Below, one piece after another: positions 18,905 through 54,485 of a DNA stretch of 64,000 nucleotides; the first letter of the stretch is position 1, and every line of letters begins with the position of its first letter. The stretch lies in contig NZ_JAJQRG010000004.1 in the NCBI RefSeq assembly GCF_021228235.1, positions 1-64,000 of the forward strand. Direction: 5' to 3'. Source of the stretch: Pseudophaeobacter flagellatus. GTDB taxonomy: Bacteria > Pseudomonadota > Alphaproteobacteria > Rhodobacterales > Rhodobacteraceae. The notes beneath the pieces were generated by a model. It worked only from the letters and a program-made list of their open reading frames with translations, was not told where the DNA came from and ran no database searches. Made by a program: the position numbers and the translations under genes.

Positions 18905-19993
18905 ATGCGCAAGACACTGTACCTTCATATCGGACACTTCAAGACGGGCACGACTGCCGTCCAGGCGTTCTTGAATGATAACCCCAGATTGCTCAAACGG
19001 CATGACTTTGCTCTTGCCCAGACGAGGCTGCAGTATTCCAAACATTCCGATCTTGCCTACAGCCTGTATAAGGCGGCAGGGGTTAAAAGCTTTCTGCATG
19101 GCTACAAAAAGCCAGAGACACCGCAGCAGGTCTGGGCTGCGCTATTTGATGAGCTGCGCGCCAGTAACCGCTCGCGGATGATTGTCAGCTCGGAAGAGTT
19201 CATGCGGCTCGCCTGTTTTCCAAAGGCGGTCAAGACGCTGTCCCGGATCATCAAGTCCGCGCGTGATATCGACTTTAAGGTGATCGCCTTCTTGCGCCCG
19301 CCGGACAGCCATTTGCAGTCCTGGTACAACCAGCTGATCAAGATGGGCGTAGAGACGCCCCCCTATAATGTCGCGATGACTGATCTGGTAGAGCCGATCC
19401 ACTATGATTATGCTCTGGCACTGCGGCCTTGGATCGAGATTTTTGGAGCAGAGGCTGTCACCCTGCGTAGCTACAGCGAGGCCAGCCGCGAAAACAATTT
19501 GCTATTCAAGGATTTCCTCTCGGCCATTGGTATCACCCTGCCCAAATTCGGCCTGGTCCTGGCCAAGGCGGATCCAAACCCACGTCTGGACGATACCGTG
19601 CTTGAGATGGTGCGCATACTGCAAAACGCTGGAATTCCAAACAAGATGGTCCAACCACTGGCAGCGCGCTTCGTGACCCATATGGCCAGCGAAGAGGCGG
19701 GCGACCCTGCCGGGGCGGACGATGCGTTTGCGGCCCTTCGTCAAAGAACGCTGGACGGGCTGAAAGAGCTGCAGCGCGTGGCCCCTGAATTTGACGCAAC
19801 CCTTGCGCCCTTTCACCAGCATCTGCCCAAGGAAGAGACACAGACCGCGCGTGAGGGCTGGCTTGTCGCCGGATACTTGCTGGGTGAATTACATGCGTTG
19901 CGCAAAAAGACGCAGCAGCAGAACCAGATGATGACGAAGCGGCTGGACGCGCTTGAGGCGCGGCTGCCCACTGATGATGGCGACCCGTCGTGA
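18905..19993 (+). CDS. P-loop sulfotransferase-like protein
   Basis: A 362-residue protein beginning MRKTLYLHIGHFKTGTTAVQ, where HIG-x-x-KTGTT is the PAPS-binding P-loop of bacterial sulfotransferase-like proteins. A segment FKVIAFLRPPDSHLQSWYNQ has the R-x-P-x-x-x-x-x-S-x-Y pattern expected of the 3'-phosphate site. The C-terminal 80 residues are helical and polar and probably mediate contacts. The stop overlaps the GTG start of the next glycosyltransferase gene (GTGA), so the two are coupled. A glycan sulfotransferase role is inferred from family and neighbours. Confidence 0.78.
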   Translation: MRKTLYLHIGHFKTGTTAVQAFLNDNPRLLKRHDFALAQTRLQYSKHSDLAYSLYKAAGVKSFLHGYKKPETPQQVWAALFDELRASNRSRMIVSSEEFMRLACFPKAVKTLSRIIKSARDIDFKVIAFLRPPDSHLQSWYNQLIKMGVETPPYNVAMTDLVEPIHYDYALALRPWIEIFGAEAVTLRSYSEASRENNLLFKDFLSAIGITLPKFGLVLAKADPNPRLDDTVLEMVRILQNAGIPNKMVQPLAARFVTHMASEEAGDPAGADDAFAALRQRTLDGLKELQRVAPEFDATLAPFHQHLPKEETQTAREGWLVAGYLLGELHALRKKTQQQNQMMTKRLDALEARLPTDDGDPS

Positions 19994-21543
19994 GGGTTCT
20001 TTACTACAATTGGGTTGATTACCTGGATGCAGAGAACCGGGGCGGTGGGGTGTCGCAATATCAGCGCAATATCCTGCAGGAACTGGATCAGGGCAGCGAC
20101 ATCGACGCGGTGTTTTTGTCTGCGGGGATTTCGTATGACCTGCGCAAGCGGCCGCCACGTTGGGAGCAGACCCGTCACGGTCCGCGACAGGATCGCGCAC
20201 GGCGCTATGAAATTGTCAACTCTGCGGTCCTGTCGCCTGCGCATTTCTCCTTCGGCAGTGCGGCCCAGTGCGATGACACCGACACCGAAGCGTGCTTTTA
20301 TGATTTTCTAGAGGCAACTGGCCCCTATGATGTGGTGCATTTCAACAATCTTGAAGGTCTGCCTGCGCGGGTACTGGAGCTAAAAGCCCGCTGGCCTCAA
20401 ATGCGGCTGATCCTGTCTTTGCACAACTATTACCCGTTTTGCCCGCAGGTGAACCTGTGGTTTCAAGAGCGTGAGAACTGCCTGGATTTCAAAGGCGGCG
20501 TCAAATGCGGGAGCTGTCTGCCGCAGGCGCATAACCAAAAGCAATTGCGCCTGGCCCATGCCCTGGCCTATCGGTTGAAGGCTGCTGGATTTGAACCCAA
20601 CAGCCGGATGTTTCAACTGCTGTACCAGCCGACGATCCGAGTAGGGCGGCGGCTGTCGATTGTGCTGAACGCAGCGCGACGCAGCCTGCGCAAGATCACC
20701 GGCACCCGGCGAAAGGTTTCACCAGAGGCGGCGAGCGGCCAGTCCCCGCAGCGCCAGTCGGCCCTGGGCACCGGGCAAAACCCCTTTGCCAAACGGCGGG
20801 CCGAGATGGTCTCTTTGATCAACGCGCACTGCGATCAGGTTTTGGCAGTCTCTGACTTTACCGCCGGTGTGGCGCGCCGCTATGGGGTGCATAGCGATCT
20901 GTTGCAGACCTCTTATATCGGTACCGCGCTGGCTGACTGCTTCCAACGAACCACACCGCGTCCGCTGCCCATCCAAGAGCAAGAGGTGCTTTCTCTTGGG
21001 TATCTGGGCTATATGCGGCGGGACAAAGGGTTCTTCTTTCTGCTGGAAGCACTGAAATCCCTGCCATCGCCCCTGGCGAAACGCATCCGGCTGGTGGTTG
21101 CGGCCCGGCGCGGCAATGCGGACACCATGGCAGAGCTCTCGGCGGTGGGGCAGCATCTGGCTGGGTTGGATTATCACGATGGCTATACCCATGACGAGCT
21201 GCCGGCGATCTTTGCGCAGATCGACCTTGGGGTGGTGCCGGTGCTGTGGAACGACAACCTGCCACAGGTCGCGATTGAAATGCACGCCAATCATATCCCA
21301 CTGCTGACCAGCGATCTGGGCGGCGCGCAAGAGCTGTCGAACTGCGACGAGATGGTTTTTGCCGCCGGTGATATCCAGGCGTTCCAAGACCGGCTGCAGG
21401 CGATCCTGTCCGGCGCCGTGAACATGGAGGCCTATTGGGCTGGCGCGCGTGTGCCCAGTTCGATGGCGGACCATATGGCGCAGTTGACACAGGTCTATAC
21501 GTCATCAGACGTCACCGGGTGCGCAGGAACAGGCCTGGGCTAG
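19990..21543 (+). CDS. GT4-type glycosyltransferase
   Basis: A 517-residue retaining glycosyltransferase of the GT-B fold. The N-terminal domain opens VLYYNWVDYLD..GGGVSQYQRNIL, with the Gly-rich acceptor-side loop of GT4 enzymes; LSLHNYYPFCPQVNLW follows, and the C-terminal half contains LGYLGYMRRDKGFFFLLEAL and the donor-site region ending TSDLGGAQELS, equivalent to the E-x7-E region although the first Glu is not conserved in the usual way. A linker around residues 215-270 is basic and low in complexity. The GTG start overlaps the preceding sulfotransferase stop. Donor and acceptor sugars are unknown. Confidence 0.83.
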   Translation: MRVLYYNWVDYLDAENRGGGVSQYQRNILQELDQGSDIDAVFLSAGISYDLRKRPPRWEQTRHGPRQDRARRYEIVNSAVLSPAHFSFGSAAQCDDTDTEACFYDFLEATGPYDVVHFNNLEGLPARVLELKARWPQMRLILSLHNYYPFCPQVNLWFQERENCLDFKGGVKCGSCLPQAHNQKQLRLAHALAYRLKAAGFEPNSRMFQLLYQPTIRVGRRLSIVLNAARRSLRKITGTRRKVSPEAASGQSPQRQSALGTGQNPFAKRRAEMVSLINAHCDQVLAVSDFTAGVARRYGVHSDLLQTSYIGTALADCFQRTTPRPLPIQEQEVLSLGYLGYMRRDKGFFFLLEALKSLPSPLAKRIRLVVAARRGNADTMAELSAVGQHLAGLDYHDGYTHDELPAIFAQIDLGVVPVLWNDNLPQVAIEMHANHIPLLTSDLGGAQELSNCDEMVFAAGDIQAFQDRLQAILSGAVNMEAYWAGARVPSSMADHMAQLTQVYTSSDVTGCAGTGLG

Positions 21544-21602: not shown

Positions 21603-24600
21603 CTAGGCCTTCTCGAGGCGGGATTTGACAAAATCGGCATCCTGCCAGTGCACCGAAAGCCCTTCTTCATAAATCACATCACGCCCCTCTGACATCAGGG
21701 CCAGGTATTTCCGGTATTCTTCCGCATCGTTGAAGTGCTGGCGGCGCGCCACCTCGATCTGGGCCTTGCGATAGAAATCGGCATTGTATTTGAAGTGGCC
21801 AAAGATCAGCTCGCGGCTGGACAGTTTGATATCGGTGACAAAGTGATAGCCGGCCGAGATCCGCATCCAGGGCTGATATTTCAGCAGAGCGATTTTCTGT
21901 GCCACAAACAGATCCATGCGCGAACCGGCAATCAACCGATGCCGCACGGCACTGGTCCAGGTGGGCATGTTGGAAAAGGGTCCCTGTCCGGTCCAATTGG
22001 CCAAAAACGGTTCGCGGTCGACATACCCCGCCTCGGCAAAGGGATCGGTTTGGAAGGTTGCGTCCCCCAAAGAGCCCTTGGGGTACATGTCCAGCATGAA
22101 GATGCGGGCGGCATCGGCCCCCTCAAAGGCGGCGGTTTGCAGCAGGGCGGGCAGGCTTTGCTTTTGGGGGGTCTGCCAGACCAGTAATTCATCGGTATCG
22201 GCAATCAGACTCCACTTGCCGGGACGGAAGGCTGCAATCATTGCTTGTTGCCAGCCCGCGCCATAGTGCGACAGGCTGTAATCGGTATCGACAGAGAACA
22301 GCGCCACATCAGGCTGTTCCATCAGGTATTCCAGGGTGCCATCATCAGAGCAGTTGTCGGCAATGAGAAAGCTCTCGACGCCTAGGCGCCGGTAGTGGGC
22401 AAGAAACTGCGGCAGCATGAACATTTCATTGCGCATACAGGCGACCACTGCGACCTCTGCGCTGCGCGCGGCATCCAGCCGATCTTCGCTGCTGATCAGT
22501 TCCAGCGCATTGCTTTGATAGACCAGGGCGGCATCCTGATAACTGGGCCAGATTTTCTTCGGCGTCAGGCTTGGCGCTGATAGTTTGGCGCAGGCCTGGG
22601 CCTGGCTTGCGTGTTCATCCAGATGCACCATAGAGACCGGCGCGGCCTGACTGGCGTCAAAGCTGTTGACCCAGCGCGAGACCGGTGTCGCCTTGCCCCA
22701 GGTGCGGCGGCGAATAGAGGTGCGATAGTCCTCATCCGCAGGATGAATACCCTGTTGTGCCAATAGATCCCCCAGCATCTTGTCTTCCATAAAGGACATC
22801 TGGATGAGGTGCTGCCCTTCCGGGCTTTCGCTTGCGGCACAGACTGCGGCCATGGCGGTGCGGCTCAGCGCATAGCCAGTGCCGCCATCGGTGTAGGTTG
22901 ACGGTTCCGGCGATTTATCCAGTTCCAGTCGCCCTCGATCAGAGGTCGATTTTTCATTGTGCCAGGCCCGGTCCATATCGCCGGGGCGGCGGGTCAGGAT
23001 CCGGCCGTAATAGTCGAATTTGCGATAGCTTTGCCCGTGAAAGAAGATATCCGGATTCAAGAAGCAGTCGTCATCGATCTTGATAAGATGTGAAAACCGG
23101 GTGTTTTCATAGACCCAGGCGATGGTGGCCAGGGTCTTTTGCGGCAACCCTTCGTAGGAGTCGGGTGCATCAAGATGCACGATATCCCCGTCGAGCTGTC
23201 CATCGCCATCGCCAACGATGATGACATAGGGGATGTCCAGCGCCTGAAGCAGCGTCAGCCAGCCTGCGCGCATGGCTGGAATGCGGCTGTTCAGGTTGGG
23301 CAGGCAGGAAAATACTGTGACAATTGTGTCAAACAGGGGCGAGCCCGCAAGCGCTGGCGCGCCTTCCGGCAACGGGTGGGGCGCTGGCAGGGCCTGGGCG
23401 AGATCTGGCAGAATGTCACGAACCCTGGCAAAGAGCGCCTGGCTTTCCGGCGTATCGCGCAGCGCCAATAGTGCCAAACTGGGCGCGGTGGCTTTGCGCA
23501 TGGCATTCTTTTCTGTTGCGGTCAGATCCTCGATCAGGGCTGTCAGCAGTCCGATAAGGGCCTCCTGCGCCTCTTGCTGGGGCGCATGGGGATGAAGGGC
23601 CCGCAGCAGGGCAAGGGTGAGGCCAAGGCCGAGAAACTGACTGCGTTGAGTAGACAACAGGCGCAGATCACGGCCCAGATCCAGGATCTGTGTCGGGGAA
23701 ATCGGCTGGGTCGCGGCCTGCTTGATCAGCAGGTGACAGCGCTGGCTGACCCTTTGCTGCAATTGGTAATAGGGCGCGCGTGGGATGTCGCGGTAAAACT
23801 TGGGCAGGGCGGAGGCGGTGGCAGAGACCAGATCCTGTGCCACAGGTGCCGCACCAGGAAAAGCCATGTGGCGCAGGCCGGCTTCGTCCAGCGGGATCTC
23901 GGCACGTTTCAGCGTCTCGACGCTCAGGGGGGCATCCTCGGCCAGGTAGGTGGCTGCGGGGCCAAGCAGCTCTCGGCGCATGCGCACCAGATCGCTACAT
24001 TGATAGACCTGGAACAGGTCGAGTGCTTGGCTCACCTCGAAAGTTGCCGTTGTCCCGTGTTCGGCGCGGTCGAGCGCGGCTTCGATCACCGCAAAGGCTT
24101 GACGCAGCGCCGCTAGCTCGGGGAGGGTTTCCAGGGGGACATGGACATCCATCTGGTGCCAGAACTGTCGGGACAGGCCGTAGGCACGCAGGGTGAATTC
24201 CATGATCGGGCGTTGGATATAATCTGTAAAACTGTCGATATTATGCAGCAGATCTACCGCGACACTGGTCAGATCTTGGCAATGGGCCCGTCCCCAGTAT
24301 TGCCCCGCCTGCCGGTCGACCAGATCCATATAGGCATAGATGATGTGTTCGCGGATCTTTTCCTCGACACCCTTGCCGGTAATTGCCCGGCGTAGCAGCC
24401 AGGAAACCGCCGGGGTGACAATCCATCCAGCCGTTGGTTCAATCAAGGAACGCAGTGTCGGGCAGATCTCGCTGTGGCGATCTTCCAGGAACAAAAAGGG
24501 CAACAGCGCCGAGCTTTTGTAAAGGTTGCCAGCCTCTGGTGACAGGCTGGCGCGCAACCCTTCGGCGCAATAGAGCTGATGAAACCCGTCAAAATCTTGA

Positions 24601-25745
24601 TCTGGGTGGCTGAAAAACTCGCTGAGGCTGAGAAACAGATAGCAACGTAGATCTTTTGGAATGTCAGGCAGCAGTTCGGTTAGCAGCGCCAGCGGGTCGG
24701 TCTCTGGCGTTTTGCGCATCCGCTGGCCAAAGACACCATGGGCGTGAACCACCGGGTCCCGTGGTGCCAGTTCAGGCAGGCTCGCGGCTTCGGGCTGTTG
24801 GACGGCGCTGCCTTCAGGAGGTTCGATATAGTCGCTCAGGCCGTAGAACCGCTGTGCGGTTGTAAGGCGGGCGCGGCTTTGGTCGGACAGTTGGGTCTGC
24901 AAGCGGCCAAACTGCACATGTTCCAAGACCTGCATGGCGGTGAGAGAATCGCCGCACAGATCCACATCGCTGATAATCTGTTCAATCTGTTCTGCCAGAT
25001 CCGCTGAGGTCAGGCGCAGGCGCGGGCAGGCGAGGGTGCCATCGGCATGCAGGAGCCCCAAATCCAGGGCGTTATCTTTGGCACGGCCTTCCCAGACACG
25101 CCCAGGCAGCAAAACGATGACATCTGCGCTTAGTTCGGTCTTGTCCCTGCGGCGATCTTGGTTGGAAGCCGGGTATAGAATGACCTGTGGCACTGTGTCC
25201 ACTCCGGGGAGGTCCAGGTGCAGGGCTGGCAGAGTGGATGTGTACTTCACCCGCGCGCGCAGCTCTAGCCGGTTGCTGAGGCACAGCTGCCCTTTGTTGA
25301 GTTTGGCCTGGTTGCTCCGGGTGAGCGCCCCAAGAGAGAGCTTCTGGCGCGTGTCATCGCCAAAGTCGATGTCGGCAGCAGCAATACCGCCCTGGTAGGA
25401 AACAAAACTGATCTGGTCCAGATTCGGATAAGATCGGCGGATGATATTGTGGCCGAAGCGGAACACACGCACCCCATCTACCGCCACGGTAACATGCGGT
25501 GGAGCAAAGGTAATTGTGACTTCAGCCTCGGATTTCGCCAGAGATTTCTTGTAGGTTTTTTCGGCGGCCCATATCTCTCCGGTGCGTTTGTTACAGACGC
25601 AGAGTCCCTCGTCCTGGCGCAACGATAAATGGAACAGAATGTTGGCCTGCTCGCGATCAAAAAACGAGATATTGGCGTAGGGCACCTCAGAGAATCTGGC
25701 AGTGTAGCGAAACACGGTGGGACCCTGAACTAAGAACGACTGCAT
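21603..25745 (-). CDS. Giant protein: galectin-like domain, GT31-like and GT2 domains
   Basis: A 1380-residue protein. Residues about 20-125 resemble a galectin carbohydrate-recognition domain: FHLSLR (His39, Arg43), CVCNK (Asn52), EIWAAEK (Trp59, Glu62), VTVAVDGVRVFRFGHN, in galectin order; the usual second Asn of H-x-N-x-R is Ser41. Residues about 130-800 are mainly helical and unrecognised. Residues about 815-1000 match a GT31 galactosyltransferase core, with the DSYEGLPQKTL block and the metal-binding DDD at 891-893 (KIDDDCFLN). Residues about 1100-1380 form a GT2-type domain (VVACMRNEMFMLPQFLAHYRRLG, ADTDELL). No signal peptide is seen, so it should be cytoplasmic. The domain order suggests a processive or branching enzyme that holds a galactose-containing acceptor. 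Confidence 0.82.
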   Translation of the reverse strand: MQSFLVQGPTVFRYTARFSEVPYANISFFDREQANILFHLSLRQDEGLCVCNKRTGEIWAAEKTYKKSLAKSEAEVTITFAPPHVTVAVDGVRVFRFGHNIIRRSYPNLDQISFVSYQGGIAAADIDFGDDTRQKLSLGALTRSNQAKLNKGQLCLSNRLELRARVKYTSTLPALHLDLPGVDTVPQVILYPASNQDRRRDKTELSADVIVLLPGRVWEGRAKDNALDLGLLHADGTLACPRLRLTSADLAEQIEQIISDVDLCGDSLTAMQVLEHVQFGRLQTQLSDQSRARLTTAQRFYGLSDYIEPPEGSAVQQPEAASLPELAPRDPVVHAHGVFGQRMRKTPETDPLALLTELLPDIPKDLRCYLFLSLSEFFSHPDQDFDGFHQLYCAEGLRASLSPEAGNLYKSSALLPFLFLEDRHSEICPTLRSLIEPTAGWIVTPAVSWLLRRAITGKGVEEKIREHIIYAYMDLVDRQAGQYWGRAHCQDLTSVAVDLLHNIDSFTDYIQRPIMEFTLRAYGLSRQFWHQMDVHVPLETLPELAALRQAFAVIEAALDRAEHGTTATFEVSQALDLFQVYQCSDLVRMRRELLGPAATYLAEDAPLSVETLKRAEIPLDEAGLRHMAFPGAAPVAQDLVSATASALPKFYRDIPRAPYYQLQQRVSQRCHLLIKQAATQPISPTQILDLGRDLRLLSTQRSQFLGLGLTLALLRALHPHAPQQEAQEALIGLLTALIEDLTATEKNAMRKATAPSLALLALRDTPESQALFARVRDILPDLAQALPAPHPLPEGAPALAGSPLFDTIVTVFSCLPNLNSRIPAMRAGWLTLLQALDIPYVIIVGDGDGQLDGDIVHLDAPDSYEGLPQKTLATIAWVYENTRFSHLIKIDDDCFLNPDIFFHGQSYRKFDYYGRILTRRPGDMDRAWHNEKSTSDRGRLELDKSPEPSTYTDGGTGYALSRTAMAAVCAASESPEGQHLIQMSFMEDKMLGDLLAQQGIHPADEDYRTSIRRRTWGKATPVSRWVNSFDASQAAPVSMVHLDEHASQAQACAKLSAPSLTPKKIWPSYQDAALVYQSNALELISSEDRLDAARSAEVAVVACMRNEMFMLPQFLAHYRRLGVESFLIADNCSDDGTLEYLMEQPDVALFSVDTDYSLSHYGAGWQQAMIAAFRPGKWSLIADTDELLVWQTPQKQSLPALLQTAAFEGADAARIFMLDMYPKGSLGDATFQTDPFAEAGYVDREPFLANWTGQGPFSNMPTWTSAVRHRLIAGSRMDLFVAQKIALLKYQPWMRISAGYHFVTDIKLSSRELIFGHFKYNADFYRKAQIEVARRQHFNDAEEYRKYLALMSEGRDVIYEEGLSVHWQDADFVKSRLEKA

Positions 25746-25802: not shown

Positions 25803-27713
25803 CTAGGGACGGCGGCGAAGTTGGGCTTCAATACTAAGTAGGGTGGCTATCCGTTGCCCCTCCCCAGGGTCAAGGGGGCTTTGGGTTCGGGTTAGGCCGC
25901 GGCACAGGGCCGCCCAGACTGCGGTGAGGCATAAAAGCCCCAGCTTCAGCCGAGGCAGGGGGGCGCGAATCTGTGCCATGCGCTGCCGCAGCGCGCGCGC
26001 AAAGAGACGCCGTTGCCAGCCTTCGGGCAGCTGACAGGACTGACCATCCGCCTGCAACCGGGCAGTCAGTTGATCAAGCGAGCGCACAAAGGCGGCGGTA
26101 GTCCGACCAGGGGCATACTGTGCCAGCGCCGCGTCAGATTGGTTCACATCGCAGCCGGGCTGCGCAAAATACAGCGCCTTTGGCGCCAAAAGCGCCGCCT
26201 GAAGGGCCAGTTGCCATCCCGGCAAGGTGCCAGTGCCAAAGCCAAGCCCGGCCTGAATAAGAAAGGCACGGCGATAGAGCTTTGGGGAAATCTGGCCATC
26301 CAGGGCCAGGGCCAGTTCGGGGGAAAACGCAAAATCAGCGGCGGCCAGCGGCTGCAAGATCTGCGCATCATCGCAATAGATGGCGGCGTGATAGGTGCCG
26401 CCCTCTAGTCCCAGACGATAGGCTGAAACGGCAAAATCCGCCTCTGCTGCCAGCATTCCATCCACCCAGTCGTGCAGGGCCATTTCGCCCAATACATCCC
26501 CCGGCACAAGGAAGTTGACGTAGCGGCCGCGCGCCGCCGCAAGCCCGGCGGTGCAGGCGGCGGCGATCCCTGTCTCGGTGTGGCGCAGAACGCGCGCCTC
26601 TGGGTGGCCGGCCGCAACGAGGCTTGCCTGGGTTTCGGCCTGCTTGGTGTTGCACAGGATCAGGATCTCGCGCCCCGGTGCCCCCTGTTTTGCCAGCGCG
26701 TTCAGGCTGATTTCCAGCAGACCCGTATCGCTGCCAGACCAGGGAAGCACCACGCTCAGCGGTAGGATGCCAGTCATTTCGATACCCCAGGCCGCCGAGA
26801 TATGCGGGTCCCAGTCCGGGCAATAGCGCAGCCCGTGGTGGTCTAGATATCTGGCACAGGCGTCGGCATAGCGGGCACGGCGTTCGGGCACGCGCAGGGC
26901 AGTGCTGCGTTCAAACAGCAGGCGGCTGGCGATCTGTTCAAAGGCGGCATCAGCCTCCGCGCGTGGTGCGGTGGCCATCAGGGCCTTGATGCGATCCAGC
27001 ACCGGGAATTGTTCAAACACCCGGTCGCTGTCGCTGCCCGTTATCTGCCCCTCGCGGGCGCGGGTCTGCAGGTAGAGCGGCGCTTCGATATGCAGCAGGT
27101 GATCACTGCGCGCGGCGGCCTGGTAATAGAATTCGTGATCCTCGAACCAGGTCCCTTCACGAAAGCGCAGGTCCGCGATCAAGCTGCGGCGGTACAATTT
27201 GTTCCAGGCCGAAGGAAAGTGAACAATCGCCTGCTGCCACGTGGTCAGCGGGTAGGTCCTGCGCAGGCCAGAGCTGTGCCGCGCGGCCTGGCCGTGAATG
27301 GCGGAATGGTCACTGTGGCTGCCATCGGGAAAGCAAAAGCGAATACCGCAGGACACCCAGTCGGCGCCAGTGTCCTCAAGCGCCTGCCACAGCTGCGACA
27401 GATAGTCCGGGGCCAGTTGGTCATCACTGTCGAGAAAAGCAATGTAATCCGCCTGTGCCAGATCCAGCCCGGTGTTGCGCGCCCCCGACAGCCCCTTGTT
27501 GGGCTGTTGCACCAGTCGAAACCGCGGGTCCTGTGCGATGGCCTTGCGCGCCACGTCGGCGCTGTTGTCAGTGGAGCCGTCGTCGATCACCAGGGCTTCG
27601 AAATCGCACAGGTCTTGCGCTCGAAGGCTGCGAATGCAGGCCGCCACATGGTCTTCGACGTTATAGACCGGCAGGATGACCGAAATTAGCGGCTTTGGCG
27701 TGGAGCTTGGCAT
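25803..27713 (-). CDS. GT2-family glycosyltransferase with second degenerate domain
   Basis: A 636-residue protein. Residues 8-110 are a clear GT2 (GT-A fold) domain: SVILPVYNVEDHVAACIRSL, VIDDGSTDNS and the metal-binding AFLDSDD at 93-98, followed by acceptor region WFEDHEFYYQAA. Residues about 315-560 contain a second GT2-like region (LPLSVVLPWSGSDTGLLEISLNALA, GRYVNFLVPGD) in which the DxD is replaced by PGD, so it is probably inactive or regulatory. It lies 57 bases upstream of the giant gene on the same strand, so they are probably transcribed together. Confidence 0.87.
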   Translation of the reverse strand: MPSSTPKPLISVILPVYNVEDHVAACIRSLRAQDLCDFEALVIDDGSTDNSADVARKAIAQDPRFRLVQQPNKGLSGARNTGLDLAQADYIAFLDSDDQLAPDYLSQLWQALEDTGADWVSCGIRFCFPDGSHSDHSAIHGQAARHSSGLRRTYPLTTWQQAIVHFPSAWNKLYRRSLIADLRFREGTWFEDHEFYYQAAARSDHLLHIEAPLYLQTRAREGQITGSDSDRVFEQFPVLDRIKALMATAPRAEADAAFEQIASRLLFERSTALRVPERRARYADACARYLDHHGLRYCPDWDPHISAAWGIEMTGILPLSVVLPWSGSDTGLLEISLNALAKQGAPGREILILCNTKQAETQASLVAAGHPEARVLRHTETGIAAACTAGLAAARGRYVNFLVPGDVLGEMALHDWVDGMLAAEADFAVSAYRLGLEGGTYHAAIYCDDAQILQPLAAADFAFSPELALALDGQISPKLYRRAFLIQAGLGFGTGTLPGWQLALQAALLAPKALYFAQPGCDVNQSDAALAQYAPGRTTAAFVRSLDQLTARLQADGQSCQLPEGWQRRLFARALRQRMAQIRAPLPRLKLGLLCLTAVWAALCRGLTRTQSPLDPGEGQRIATLLSIEAQLRRRP

Positions 27714-52769: not shown

Positions 52770-54347
52770 CTAGTCGGCAAACAGAAGTGGACTATTGGCC
52801 AGGGTCTGTGCAGTTTCCATTGGCAGGCCAAAGACCTCGGCCAATTGGGTAGCGTTGATCTCGGCACTGTCTGACTGGCGTATCAGCCGGTAATTGGCAA
52901 AGCCGGCGTCGCGCAGGCGGTCGGCTTCGTAGATGATGTCATTGCGAATGGTCGGCAGCAGCCTCTTCAGCGCCTGTTGTGGCGTGTGTTTCCCCGCAAG
53001 GCCAACCCGGTGTGCATGGCCAATCAGATAGTCATCGGAAAAGTCGCATTCGATCTGCAGCGTGCGGGTGGTAGAGCGATCACTGTTGAAGTCATTCATC
53101 AGATCCAGCGCAGCCGGGTCCAGGCAAATGACCAGCCGGTTGGTGTCAAAATACTCAAACAGCATCCGCATCAAGGCGCGCCGATGCCGGGTGCGTTTGC
53201 CCAGAGAGGCCTGAATGCCGCCCAGATCCGGCAGCGGTGTTGCCTCTTCGTGGAACAGATAGTCAATGGCGGCAATATCGGTGTGTTGCCGCAGCTGGGC
53301 GATCAGTCGTTTGGCCACATGCCATTTTTTGCAGACCACGATGATCAGTTCGCGCTCGCGCCCGAGAGAGCTTTCTTTTTCCCAGAACCGGGTGGCAAAG
53401 CGGCGACCAATACGGCCGCGCTGTACCAGAAATTTATAGAGACTGCGTCCCTCGTTTGAGACCTGGAAATCAACGCCTTGGGCTGCATATAGCCGCCCAA
53501 GGCGCAGTTTCAGCTCTTTCGCGTCTGGGCTGATTTTACGGGCAAACAGAAAATCCTGGCTAAGCAGTAGATCGTAGTGATCATTGTAGAAATTCACCGG
53601 CATGCCGTAATCGGTAAACATCAAGAATGTCAGGGTGCGGCTGTCGATTTCAGCATTGGGAACCAGATGGCGCACCAGAGTCTGGAAAAAGGTCTCATCC
53701 GGGATCCAGGTGCGCTGGAAAAAGCGCACCACATCTTTTCGCTGCTTTACAAAGTCAACGATGGCCTCAACCGTGCGCCGCCGTAGGCACCACCATTGGC
53801 TGCCAATCTGCACCTGAATGTCGGCCGGTATTTGCCGCTGCAGCCCCAGCTTCTGTTGCAGATTGAGGCTGGCGTAGAATAGGGTCTTGTGTTTGCGTTC
53901 GTTCAGAAAATGGCGATAAATTAGCCGCTCTTCCTTCAGGCCGGTTTTGATCCAGTCGCTTTCAAAGAAATCAAAGCTCTCGACAAAGTCGCAGTCCCGT
54001 CGATCCAGAAAGCCATGGGCGTATTCTGCGGTTTTGATCGCCATGCAGTCGCCAGACAGCATGTAGAAATGGGTGGCCCGCGGAAAGCTGTCGAGGGCGC
54101 TGTATAGGGCGTTTAAGGTGGCCTGCACCAGCGACCATTCTCCCCAGCCGCATTTGACGCGGGTCTTGGCAAAACAGACGTTTGGGTTGCCTGACAGGGC
54201 CTTGCGAATGCTTGCATAGTCTTCCGCACTGGCACTACGGTCAAAATGGATGGACATGTAGTCGCCCACCGCGGTGAGCTGCTCTGCCTGCAGGATGACC
54301 GCCTCTGGATCCTTATGGCAGAGCAAAATATACGCAATTCTTGCCAT
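52770..54347 (-). CDS. GT14-like (core-2/I-branching) glycosyltransferase, DUF5928-type
   Basis: A 525-residue protein. The N-terminal 290 residues resemble beta-1,6-N-acetylglucosaminyltransferases of the core-2 branching family: AYILLCHKDPEAVILQAEQL, SIHFDRSASAED, HFYMLSGDCMAIK, QIGSQWWCLRRRTVEAIVDF and PDETFFQTLVRHL, in family order. The rest (ARKISPDAKELKLRLG onward) is a separate domain of unknown function. The GT14 match predicts addition of a branch sugar to a glycan. ATG at 54347; the frame is open 20 codons further. Divergent from a sulfotransferase gene. Confidence 0.86.
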   Translation of the reverse strand: MARIAYILLCHKDPEAVILQAEQLTAVGDYMSIHFDRSASAEDYASIRKALSGNPNVCFAKTRVKCGWGEWSLVQATLNALYSALDSFPRATHFYMLSGDCMAIKTAEYAHGFLDRRDCDFVESFDFFESDWIKTGLKEERLIYRHFLNERKHKTLFYASLNLQQKLGLQRQIPADIQVQIGSQWWCLRRRTVEAIVDFVKQRKDVVRFFQRTWIPDETFFQTLVRHLVPNAEIDSRTLTFLMFTDYGMPVNFYNDHYDLLLSQDFLFARKISPDAKELKLRLGRLYAAQGVDFQVSNEGRSLYKFLVQRGRIGRRFATRFWEKESSLGRERELIIVVCKKWHVAKRLIAQLRQHTDIAAIDYLFHEEATPLPDLGGIQASLGKRTRHRRALMRMLFEYFDTNRLVICLDPAALDLMNDFNSDRSTTRTLQIECDFSDDYLIGHAHRVGLAGKHTPQQALKRLLPTIRNDIIYEADRLRDAGFANYRLIRQSDSAEINATQLAEVFGLPMETAQTLANSPLLFAD

Positions 54348-54485
54348 TTTGGAGACGATGCACCCTGTAGTGAGTTGATTGTTCCCTTGATAAAGGGGCA
54401 AGCCCATTGAATAAACCAGATTATTTGAATTTTATCTGTAGATGTGAATTGTACAGGTTCCGCTGTACAAAAGGAGGAAGGCTAT

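Follow-up and report, generated by a model that had tools for sequence, protein, structure and literature searches.

A galectin domain joined to glycosyltransferases in a bacterium

The first 64,000 nucleotides of contig NZ_JAJQRG010000004.1 of Pseudophaeobacter flagellatus (assembly GCF_021228235.1; this whole stretch is called the window) carry a gene, P0001, for a 1380-residue protein in which a galectin domain is followed by a solenoid-like helical region, a glycosyltransferase (GT) domain of family GT31 and a second one of GT2 type. On balance, we favour the view that the protein belongs, as one subunit, to a polymerase in the cytoplasm whose product is an exported polysaccharide that contains galactose and probably also galactofuranose, with the galectin domain gripping the growing chain. 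The computed basis of this reading comprises the domains themselves, the predicted galectin and GT31 folds, invariant site residues, a fusion with a double-GT2 protein and the co-occurrence with glf, the gene of UDP-galactopyranose mutase; a capsule-type neighbourhood is present in about half of the stretches fetched for relatives.

The open reading frame (ORF) begins with ATG and contains no internal stop. It occupies the position given in a first-pass annotation of this DNA, which had left its strand, minus, unstated; the residues listed there (H39, S41, R43, N52, W59, E62, T64 and the DDD triplet at 891-893) are all found in the translation. Pfam recognizes three domains, all above the curated cut-offs (Table 1), and these coincide with the galectin-like N-terminus, the GT31-like core and the GT2-type domain from about residue 1100 that had been proposed by eye; NCBIfam gave 0 matches at E up to 0.01. 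Between the galectin and GT31 domains lie about 650 residues, first a beta-rich region and then a helical solenoid. The Kyte-Doolittle profile gives no obvious sign of a transmembrane or signal segment (19-residue maximum 1.49 overall and 0.37 at the N-terminus). As for a recent acquisition of foreign DNA, composition gives no sign of it (GC 0.586 in the ORF vs 0.592 in the flanks).

Conservation was read from a main alignment of 28 members (median pairwise identity 43% overall and 32% in the galectin domain), which includes the near copies L062 and L063 and has 27 rows below 90% identity. Left out of it were L064 (metagenome-assembled genome (MAG) and match values identical to L072), L073 (ends at a contig edge), L061 and L079 (restricted to the C-terminal part), L059 and L060 (lacking a galectin match), L053 (gene fragmented in G216), L081-L083 (match in the GT2 part only) and the plasmid records L084, L085 and L104-L106, some of which repeat genomes already in use. 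The structure alignments A1-A3 contain the window protein and 16 relatives. Across the 28 members, the GT31 and GT2 parts are clearly better conserved than the remainder of the protein.

The galectin domain and its sugar site

A profile of residues 1-135 built from 17 sequences retrieved 151 different PDB sequences with E-values up to 0.01, with a galectin of Toxascaris leonina (Tl-gal) as the best match (E 4e-17); among the 60 of these 151 matches that were listed, all bear the name galectin, galactose-binding lectin, LEC-6 or human lectin except for a single putative fibre protein. An AlphaFold model of residues 1-330 (m1ed78d5a597b; mean predicted local distance difference test score (pLDDT) 81, predicted template modelling score 0.62) folds the first 130 residues into a beta-sandwich. 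All 50 matches listed for this model by Foldseek, and all 50 listed by VIA-align, which re-examines the matches of Foldseek, belong to the galectins or to related proteins such as GRIFIN; the top VIA-align match is a Tl-gal chain (Z 16.7, root-mean-square deviation (rmsd) 1.9 Å, 124 residues aligned). Both the profile search and the structure prediction therefore lead to the galectin fold that had been suggested from the order of a few residues.

Six positions among residues 1-130 are invariant in the 28 members (N25, H39, S41, N52, W59 and E62). Five of these, H39, S41, N52, W59 and E62, are what we take to be classical sugar-site positions of galectins, also visible in the PDB profile alignment, a concentration with a hypergeometric probability of 1.2e-7. 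Of the core galectin residues, His, Asn, Trp and Glu are present in 28/28 members and the first Arg, R43, in 27/28. A chance match is excluded by the Pfam score, the PDB profile E-value, the predicted fold and the invariant site residues. The first-pass annotation had further suspected that an exchange of Asn for Ser at position 41 and the loss of the last Arg alter specificity: The exchange is present but not peculiar to this protein, since Ser occupies the position in 28/28 members as a family trait and H-x-S-x-R also occurs in a solved nematode galectin, the N-terminal domain of Tl-gal; the Arg is indeed lost, with Thr at position 64 here. The strict seven-residue galectin site, which we take to be H-N-R, N, W-E-R, is consequently not complete in this family, as Ser41 replaces Asn in 28/28 members and the Arg after W-x-x-E-x is not kept. 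Judged from sequence conservation, the galectin pocket appears to be under strong constraint and of a slightly different make.

The GT31 core and the helical middle

The model of residues 240-1076 (mce70364d70ee; mean pLDDT 85) is nearly all-helical up to about residue 785. The Foldseek matches for this middle region are all weak and fall on helical repeat proteins (best E 6e-4, template modelling score 0.13); the VIA-align list for the same model is occupied by matches of the GT31 part and says nothing on the middle region. The best structural matches of the GT31 part are human B3GalT5 (Z 18.8), B3GalT6 (Z 18.6) and the chondroitin polymerase CHSY3-CHPF (Z 18.4), followed by C1GalT1, B3GNT2 and Manic Fringe. 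The 17 best matches span Z 15.5-18.8, the next and first unlike match follows at Z 12.4, and we presume that all 17 (B3GalT, CHSY, C1GalT1, B3GNT2 and Fringe) are GT31 enzymes. By its model, the segment from about residue 796 to 1061 is thus predicted to be the GT31 version of the GT-A fold. A PDB profile search with residues 240-1076 found B3GalT6 (E 1.9e-6) and B3GalT5 (E 0.0013) only, over about 55 residues. GT31 enzymes are described as having the motifs DxD and E/DDx as well as a motif II, RxxxRxT/SW (PMC8186459). Here, DDD 891-893 (DxD) and ED 987-988 (E/DDx) are kept in at least 26/28 members; in the region of motif II, R821 and W829 are kept in at least 26/28 members, but the Arg between them is not.

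Relatives and spread

Among 388 genomes of the window organism's family, in which only the best two candidates per genome were scored, 12 encode the full-length protein. A pattern-based scan of contigs yielded 22 loci, 17 of them with a near full-length match and all labelled as Rhodobacterales except one labelled Bordetella petrii. The relatives include Roseobacter sp. MED193 (73.5% identity), Thalassobius, Salipiger, Shimia, Palleronia, Cognatishimia and several MAGs. The data also support an origin in the marine Roseobacter group, as the first-pass annotation had implied. These counts exclude a one-off gene, and the same domain order, for which a search in related genomes had been proposed, recurs in the group. 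Nor is the domain a common bacterial one: PF00337 was found in only 11/394 family, 3/385 class-sample and 2/398 phylum-sample genomes, each count including the window's own genome.

Several relatives depart from the common pattern. The member in the record labelled Bordetella petrii BT 1 9.2 (L074) is 39% identical to the window protein, and this record may represent a mislabelled genome or a transfer. The member of Cognatishimia activa (L075) looks like a chimera, with 61% identity to the window protein in the GT part and only 29% in the N-terminal half. A paralogue on a Thalassococcus plasmid (L059:5013-8624, minus strand; L084 lies on the same plasmid) matches residues 434-1370 of the window protein and consists of the later solenoid, a GT31 match under the cut-off and GT2, with a different N-terminus and no galectin match. 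The protein at L060:6217-9621 combines a GT2 domain at each terminus with a portion of the helical region and has neither a galectin nor a GT31 match, which indicates that modules are shuffled among relatives.

A second bacterial architecture, in which galectin, GT2 and GT25 are joined in one chain, is present in 2 genomes of another alphaproteobacterial family (Table 1). Its site reads H-x-A-x-R, N, W-x-x-E, with Ala instead of Asn/Ser. The adjacent gene encodes a DXD-type glycosyltransferase domain, with PF04488 as its best match and weaker matches to Gb3_synth and the TcdA/TcdB glycosyltransferase model.

Partner genes, exporter and the link to galactofuranose

Immediately upstream of the galectin gene lies a gene for a protein with two GT2 modules. 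In 12/28 members this partner and the galectin protein form a single ORF of 1858-2066 amino acids (some measured stop to stop), and the tree requires 3 changes between the fused and the split state; by Pfam, a chain thus holds GT31 and GT2 here, with the double-GT2 part in addition in the fused relatives. Counts of neighbouring genes refer to 35 or 32 loci, which contain repeats (L047/L084 and L064/L072; among the 35 also L061/L079) as well as loci without a galectin match. A homologue of the exporter permease (ABC2_membrane; the label KpsM is our own) falls within the fetched stretch at 17/32 loci, or 16/31 if a plasmid that is represented twice is counted once, and a glf homologue at 13/32. 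On the five annotated plasmids that carry a member, a sulfotransferase (5/5), an ATP-binding cassette (ABC) exporter (4/5), an rfb rhamnose operon (3/5) and, within the stretch, UDP-galactopyranose mutase (2/5) are found. The window itself has a possible sulfotransferase gene, whose Tropicibacter homologue is annotated as a sulfotransferase family protein. A protein of about 250 amino acids beside the cluster (L084:8203-8958, L085:12073-12849) has homologues at 16/32 loci; the L084 copy is without a Pfam match.

Beyond the neighbourhood, the protein is linked to glf across whole genomes: With L084:4965-6119 as query and E up to 1e-100, glf was detected in 78/388 family genomes and in 12/12 full-length carriers (Fisher p 2e-9). 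Adding three partial carriers gives 13/15 (G047 with, G100 and G216 without; Fisher p 2.8e-8). In 10/12 full-length carriers glf and the galectin gene share a contig. In the window's genome, glf, manC, gmd, the end of rfbB and homologues of KpsM/E/T stand together on contig C4 (88.7 kb), while C24 has Capsule_synth (PF05159) genes; genes for Poly_export (PF02563) occur on both of these contigs. Because the synthase genes are on C23, the pathway would be spread over several contigs in this genome.

Proposed function and alternatives

In the mechanism that we propose, the galectin protein and the upstream double-GT2 protein, which are one chain in some relatives, would form a cytoplasmic polymerase complex that builds a surface heteropolymer, which contains galactose and probably galactofuranose and may be sulfated. 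Sugars would be added in succession by GT31 and by the C-terminal GT2 domain, while the helical solenoid would serve as scaffold. The galectin domain would act as a carbohydrate-binding module: it would take hold of a beta-galactosyl unit in the chain under synthesis and offer this unit to the GT31 site, and this grip may confer processivity or acceptor selectivity; a Kps-like ABC transporter would then export the finished polysaccharide. Polymerase activity, the identity of the sugars, sulfation and the binding of the chain by the galectin pocket are the parts of this scheme that we infer. The earlier suggestion of an enzyme that holds its own galactose-ended acceptor appears plausible, as it fits the sequence conservation of the pocket and the association with genes for export and for UDP-galactopyranose mutase. 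A more far-reaching version is offered tentatively, as a possibility in which we place less than even trust: that of a lectin-guided polymerase, whose galectin clamp would determine how processively a surface polymer of galactose/galactofuranose is made or how long it becomes, and of galectins having been joined to sugar-adding enzymes independently in plants and in bacteria, the latter with no fewer than two arrangements (galectin-GT31-GT2 in Rhodobacterales, galectin-GT2-GT25 in a different family of the Alphaproteobacteria).

A number of observations weigh against the polymerase with a chain-gripping galectin domain. We speak of a galectin-fold domain, short of a proven beta-galactoside lectin, because of Ser41 and because position 64, the Arg slot of W-x-x-E-x-R, is variable in the 28 members; moreover, galectin-10 chains also rank high in the Foldseek search, so that binding of beta-galactosides does not follow from the fold by itself. 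Against the galectin assignment as such, PF00337 scores below the Pfam cut-off in the members L055 (17.8 bits) and L085 (16.7 bits) in whole-ORF scans, and G316 and G099 are missing from the PF00337 matches of the family yet keep the site residues. Since the L059 paralogue has no galectin match, the domain is dispensable for the architecture as such. The donor sugar is not fixed by the GT31 fold, because the structural matches include GlcNAc-transferases and a chondroitin polymerase. As regards the neighbourhood, the window gave 0 matches for 21 neighbour proteins (exporter, glf and others) from the plasmids of two relatives, and in the window's genome the homologues of exporter and glf are on a different contig from the galectin gene. 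The sulfotransferase call is weak, with sub-threshold Pfam matches only and 2 scanned homologues without a match. Finally, the Fisher test of the glf link takes no account of relatedness or of gene linkage (10/12 on the same contig).

Unlikely, in our estimate, is a role of the galectin domain as a checkpoint of length or quality before export, in which it would recognize a chain that is complete or has been modified, such as by capping or sulfation of its end, in the manner of the carbohydrate-binding modules of O-antigen ABC transporters. ABC-dependent systems of Klebsiella do recognize chain ends by a carbohydrate-binding module, and the terminator ORF6-O7 has such a module, whose role is unknown (PMC11231755). 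The adjoining sulfotransferase and exporter genes on the annotated plasmids would suit such a role, as would the shifted ligand suggested by invariant Ser41 and the lost last Arg. However, the domain sits in the synthase and not in the transporter, and both of the bacterial architectures combine it with GT modules.

The position of the domain at the junction with the double-GT2 protein, together with the fusion in 12/28 members, would also agree with a module for structure or for protein-protein docking, which would keep a multi-enzyme complex together and retain its pocket residues for folding. In addition, the galectin domain is the fast-evolving part of the protein (mean pairwise distance 0.66 vs 0.38 for the GT part). 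That sugar-site residues make up 5/6 of its invariant positions is unexpected under a purely structural role, which we regard as quite improbable. Least probable is a protein or lipid glycosyltransferase, with a galactosylated glycoprotein or glycolipid as the acceptor bound by its galectin domain: proteins or N-glycans are the substrates of the galactosylating galectin-GT31 enzymes of plants (PMC4687291, PMC8667403), whereas the ABC exporter, sugar-nucleotide and mutase genes beside the relatives indicate an exported polysaccharide.

Comparison with known systems

The best structural matches, B3GalT6 and B3GalT5, share only 24% and 18% identity with the bacterial protein over aligned residues, and their solved chains of 277 and 267 residues lack its other domains. 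CHSY3-CHPF, called a polymerase complex in PDB titles, resembles it in the GT31-type domain, which matches the model with an rmsd of 6.0 Å over 212 residues. In this human complex, GT31 is paired with a GT7 domain, and no galectin domain is known from it. The N-terminal domain of Tl-gal has the same H-x-S-x-R, V-x-N and W-x-x-E as the bacterial domain; it differs in keeping the full W-x-x-E-x-R and belongs to a two-domain animal lectin without enzyme domains. Galectin domains are known mainly from animals and fungi, and also from plants.

The fusion of galectin and GT31 is already known in plants: GALT1-6 combine PF00337 and PF01762 in one chain (PMC4687291, PMC8667403), with the galectin ahead of GT31 as here (PMC8186459). 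The fusion reported at first sight is therefore real in this bacterium but not unheard of; the observation itself was right, the protein is one of a wider family, and the functional interpretation is plausible and supported in part. The function of the galectin domain in the plant enzymes is not known, though it may help to hold another galactose (PMC8667403). GALT1-6 are predicted type II Golgi membrane proteins (PMC4687291), whereas no obvious anchor is seen here, and the eight plant Hyp-GALTs, with and without galectin, measure 338-741 amino acids (PMC8667403) as opposed to 1380. Compared with GALT1-6, the bacterial protein adds the residues between galectin and GT31 and the GT2 domain behind. 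Because of its N-terminal hydropathy maximum of 0.37, without a membrane anchor, we do not class it with the GALT1-6 type.

ABC-dependent polymerases of Klebsiella (WbbM, WbbB and ORF6-O7) possess several GT modules, the O2a polymerase WbbM two (PMC11231755). They resemble the present system in this plurality of GT modules per chain and may do so in the ABC exporter, whose genes lie beside the gene at 17/32 loci of relatives but on another contig in the window's genome; they differ in that GT31 and galectin are never mentioned in the main text of that paper. Among the titles and beginnings of abstracts listed in a literature search, with subscription journals, InterPro and CAZy outside its scope, there was no paper on a bacterial glycosyltransferase with a galectin domain.

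The present protein would extend galectin domains to a recurring bacterial synthase of polysaccharide type. It looks soluble, its pocket is invariant and its gene cluster recurs in marine bacteria that can be cultured, so that it may offer a simple system to test whether a glycosyltransferase can have its acceptor held by a galectin. Marine roseobacters, it further suggests, make a surface polymer linked to galactofuranose that may be encoded partly on plasmids, together with a rhamnose operon.

Features of the window and of related loci

Table 1. Gene, domains and neighbours of the galectin-domain protein, with the second bacterial architecture
Feature	Position	Strand	Residues or length	Basis
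Whole gene P0001, galectin / solenoid / GT31 / GT2 protein	21603..25745	minus	1380 aa (amino acids)	ORF list, translation, Pfam
Galectin domain	25356..25745	minus	1-130	PF00337 at 25-121; predicted fold; PDB profile matches
Sugar-site stretch, H39-x-S-x-R43 ... N52 ... W59-x-x-E62	25560..25631	minus		Conservation in 28 members
Second, beta-rich region	25011..25283	minus	155-245, LLPGRxW motif 212-218	Secondary structure of model m1ed78d5a597b; conservation; no Pfam match
Almost all-helical, solenoid-like middle	23391..25007	minus	~247-785	Model mce70364d70ee; no Pfam match
GT31-type galactosyltransferase domain	22563..23360	minus	~796-1061 (Pfam 851-1004; DDD 891-893; ED 987-988)	Pfam, profile, conservation, structure
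C-terminal GT2-type domain	21606..22508	minus	~1080-1380 (PF13704 1105-1202)	Pfam, conservation
PF00337 (galectin)			25-121	E 2.5e-8, 33.9 bits vs cut-off 22.1
PF01762 (Galactosyl_T, GT31)			851-1004	E 6.3e-11, 42.9 bits vs cut-off 23
PF13704 (GT2-type)			1105-1202	E 7.6e-22, 78.1 bits vs cut-off 27.5
Upstream partner, two GT2 modules	25803..27713	minus	636 aa	Pfam; homologues in 26/35 loci
Glycosyltransferase, group-1/family-4 domains (GT4-type), convergent neighbour	19990..21543	plus		Pfam; homologues in 25/35 loci
Possible sulfotransferase (weak)	18905..19993	plus		Sub-threshold Pfam, best 18.8 bits vs 22; homologues in 12/35 loci
Galectin + GT2 + GT25 protein	L088:8474-12145		1223 aa	
Galectin + GT2 + GT25 protein	L089:4701-8534		1277 aa	

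Elsewhere in the window, a Core-2/I-branching-type glycosyltransferase with DUF5928 (52770-54407) adjoins a sulfotransferase (PF03567; 54444-55304), possibly a pair for a sulfated glycan. A phage-type integrase gene (PF00589; 2589-3323) is found close to a piece of an elongation factor Tu gene, which stands at the edge of the window.

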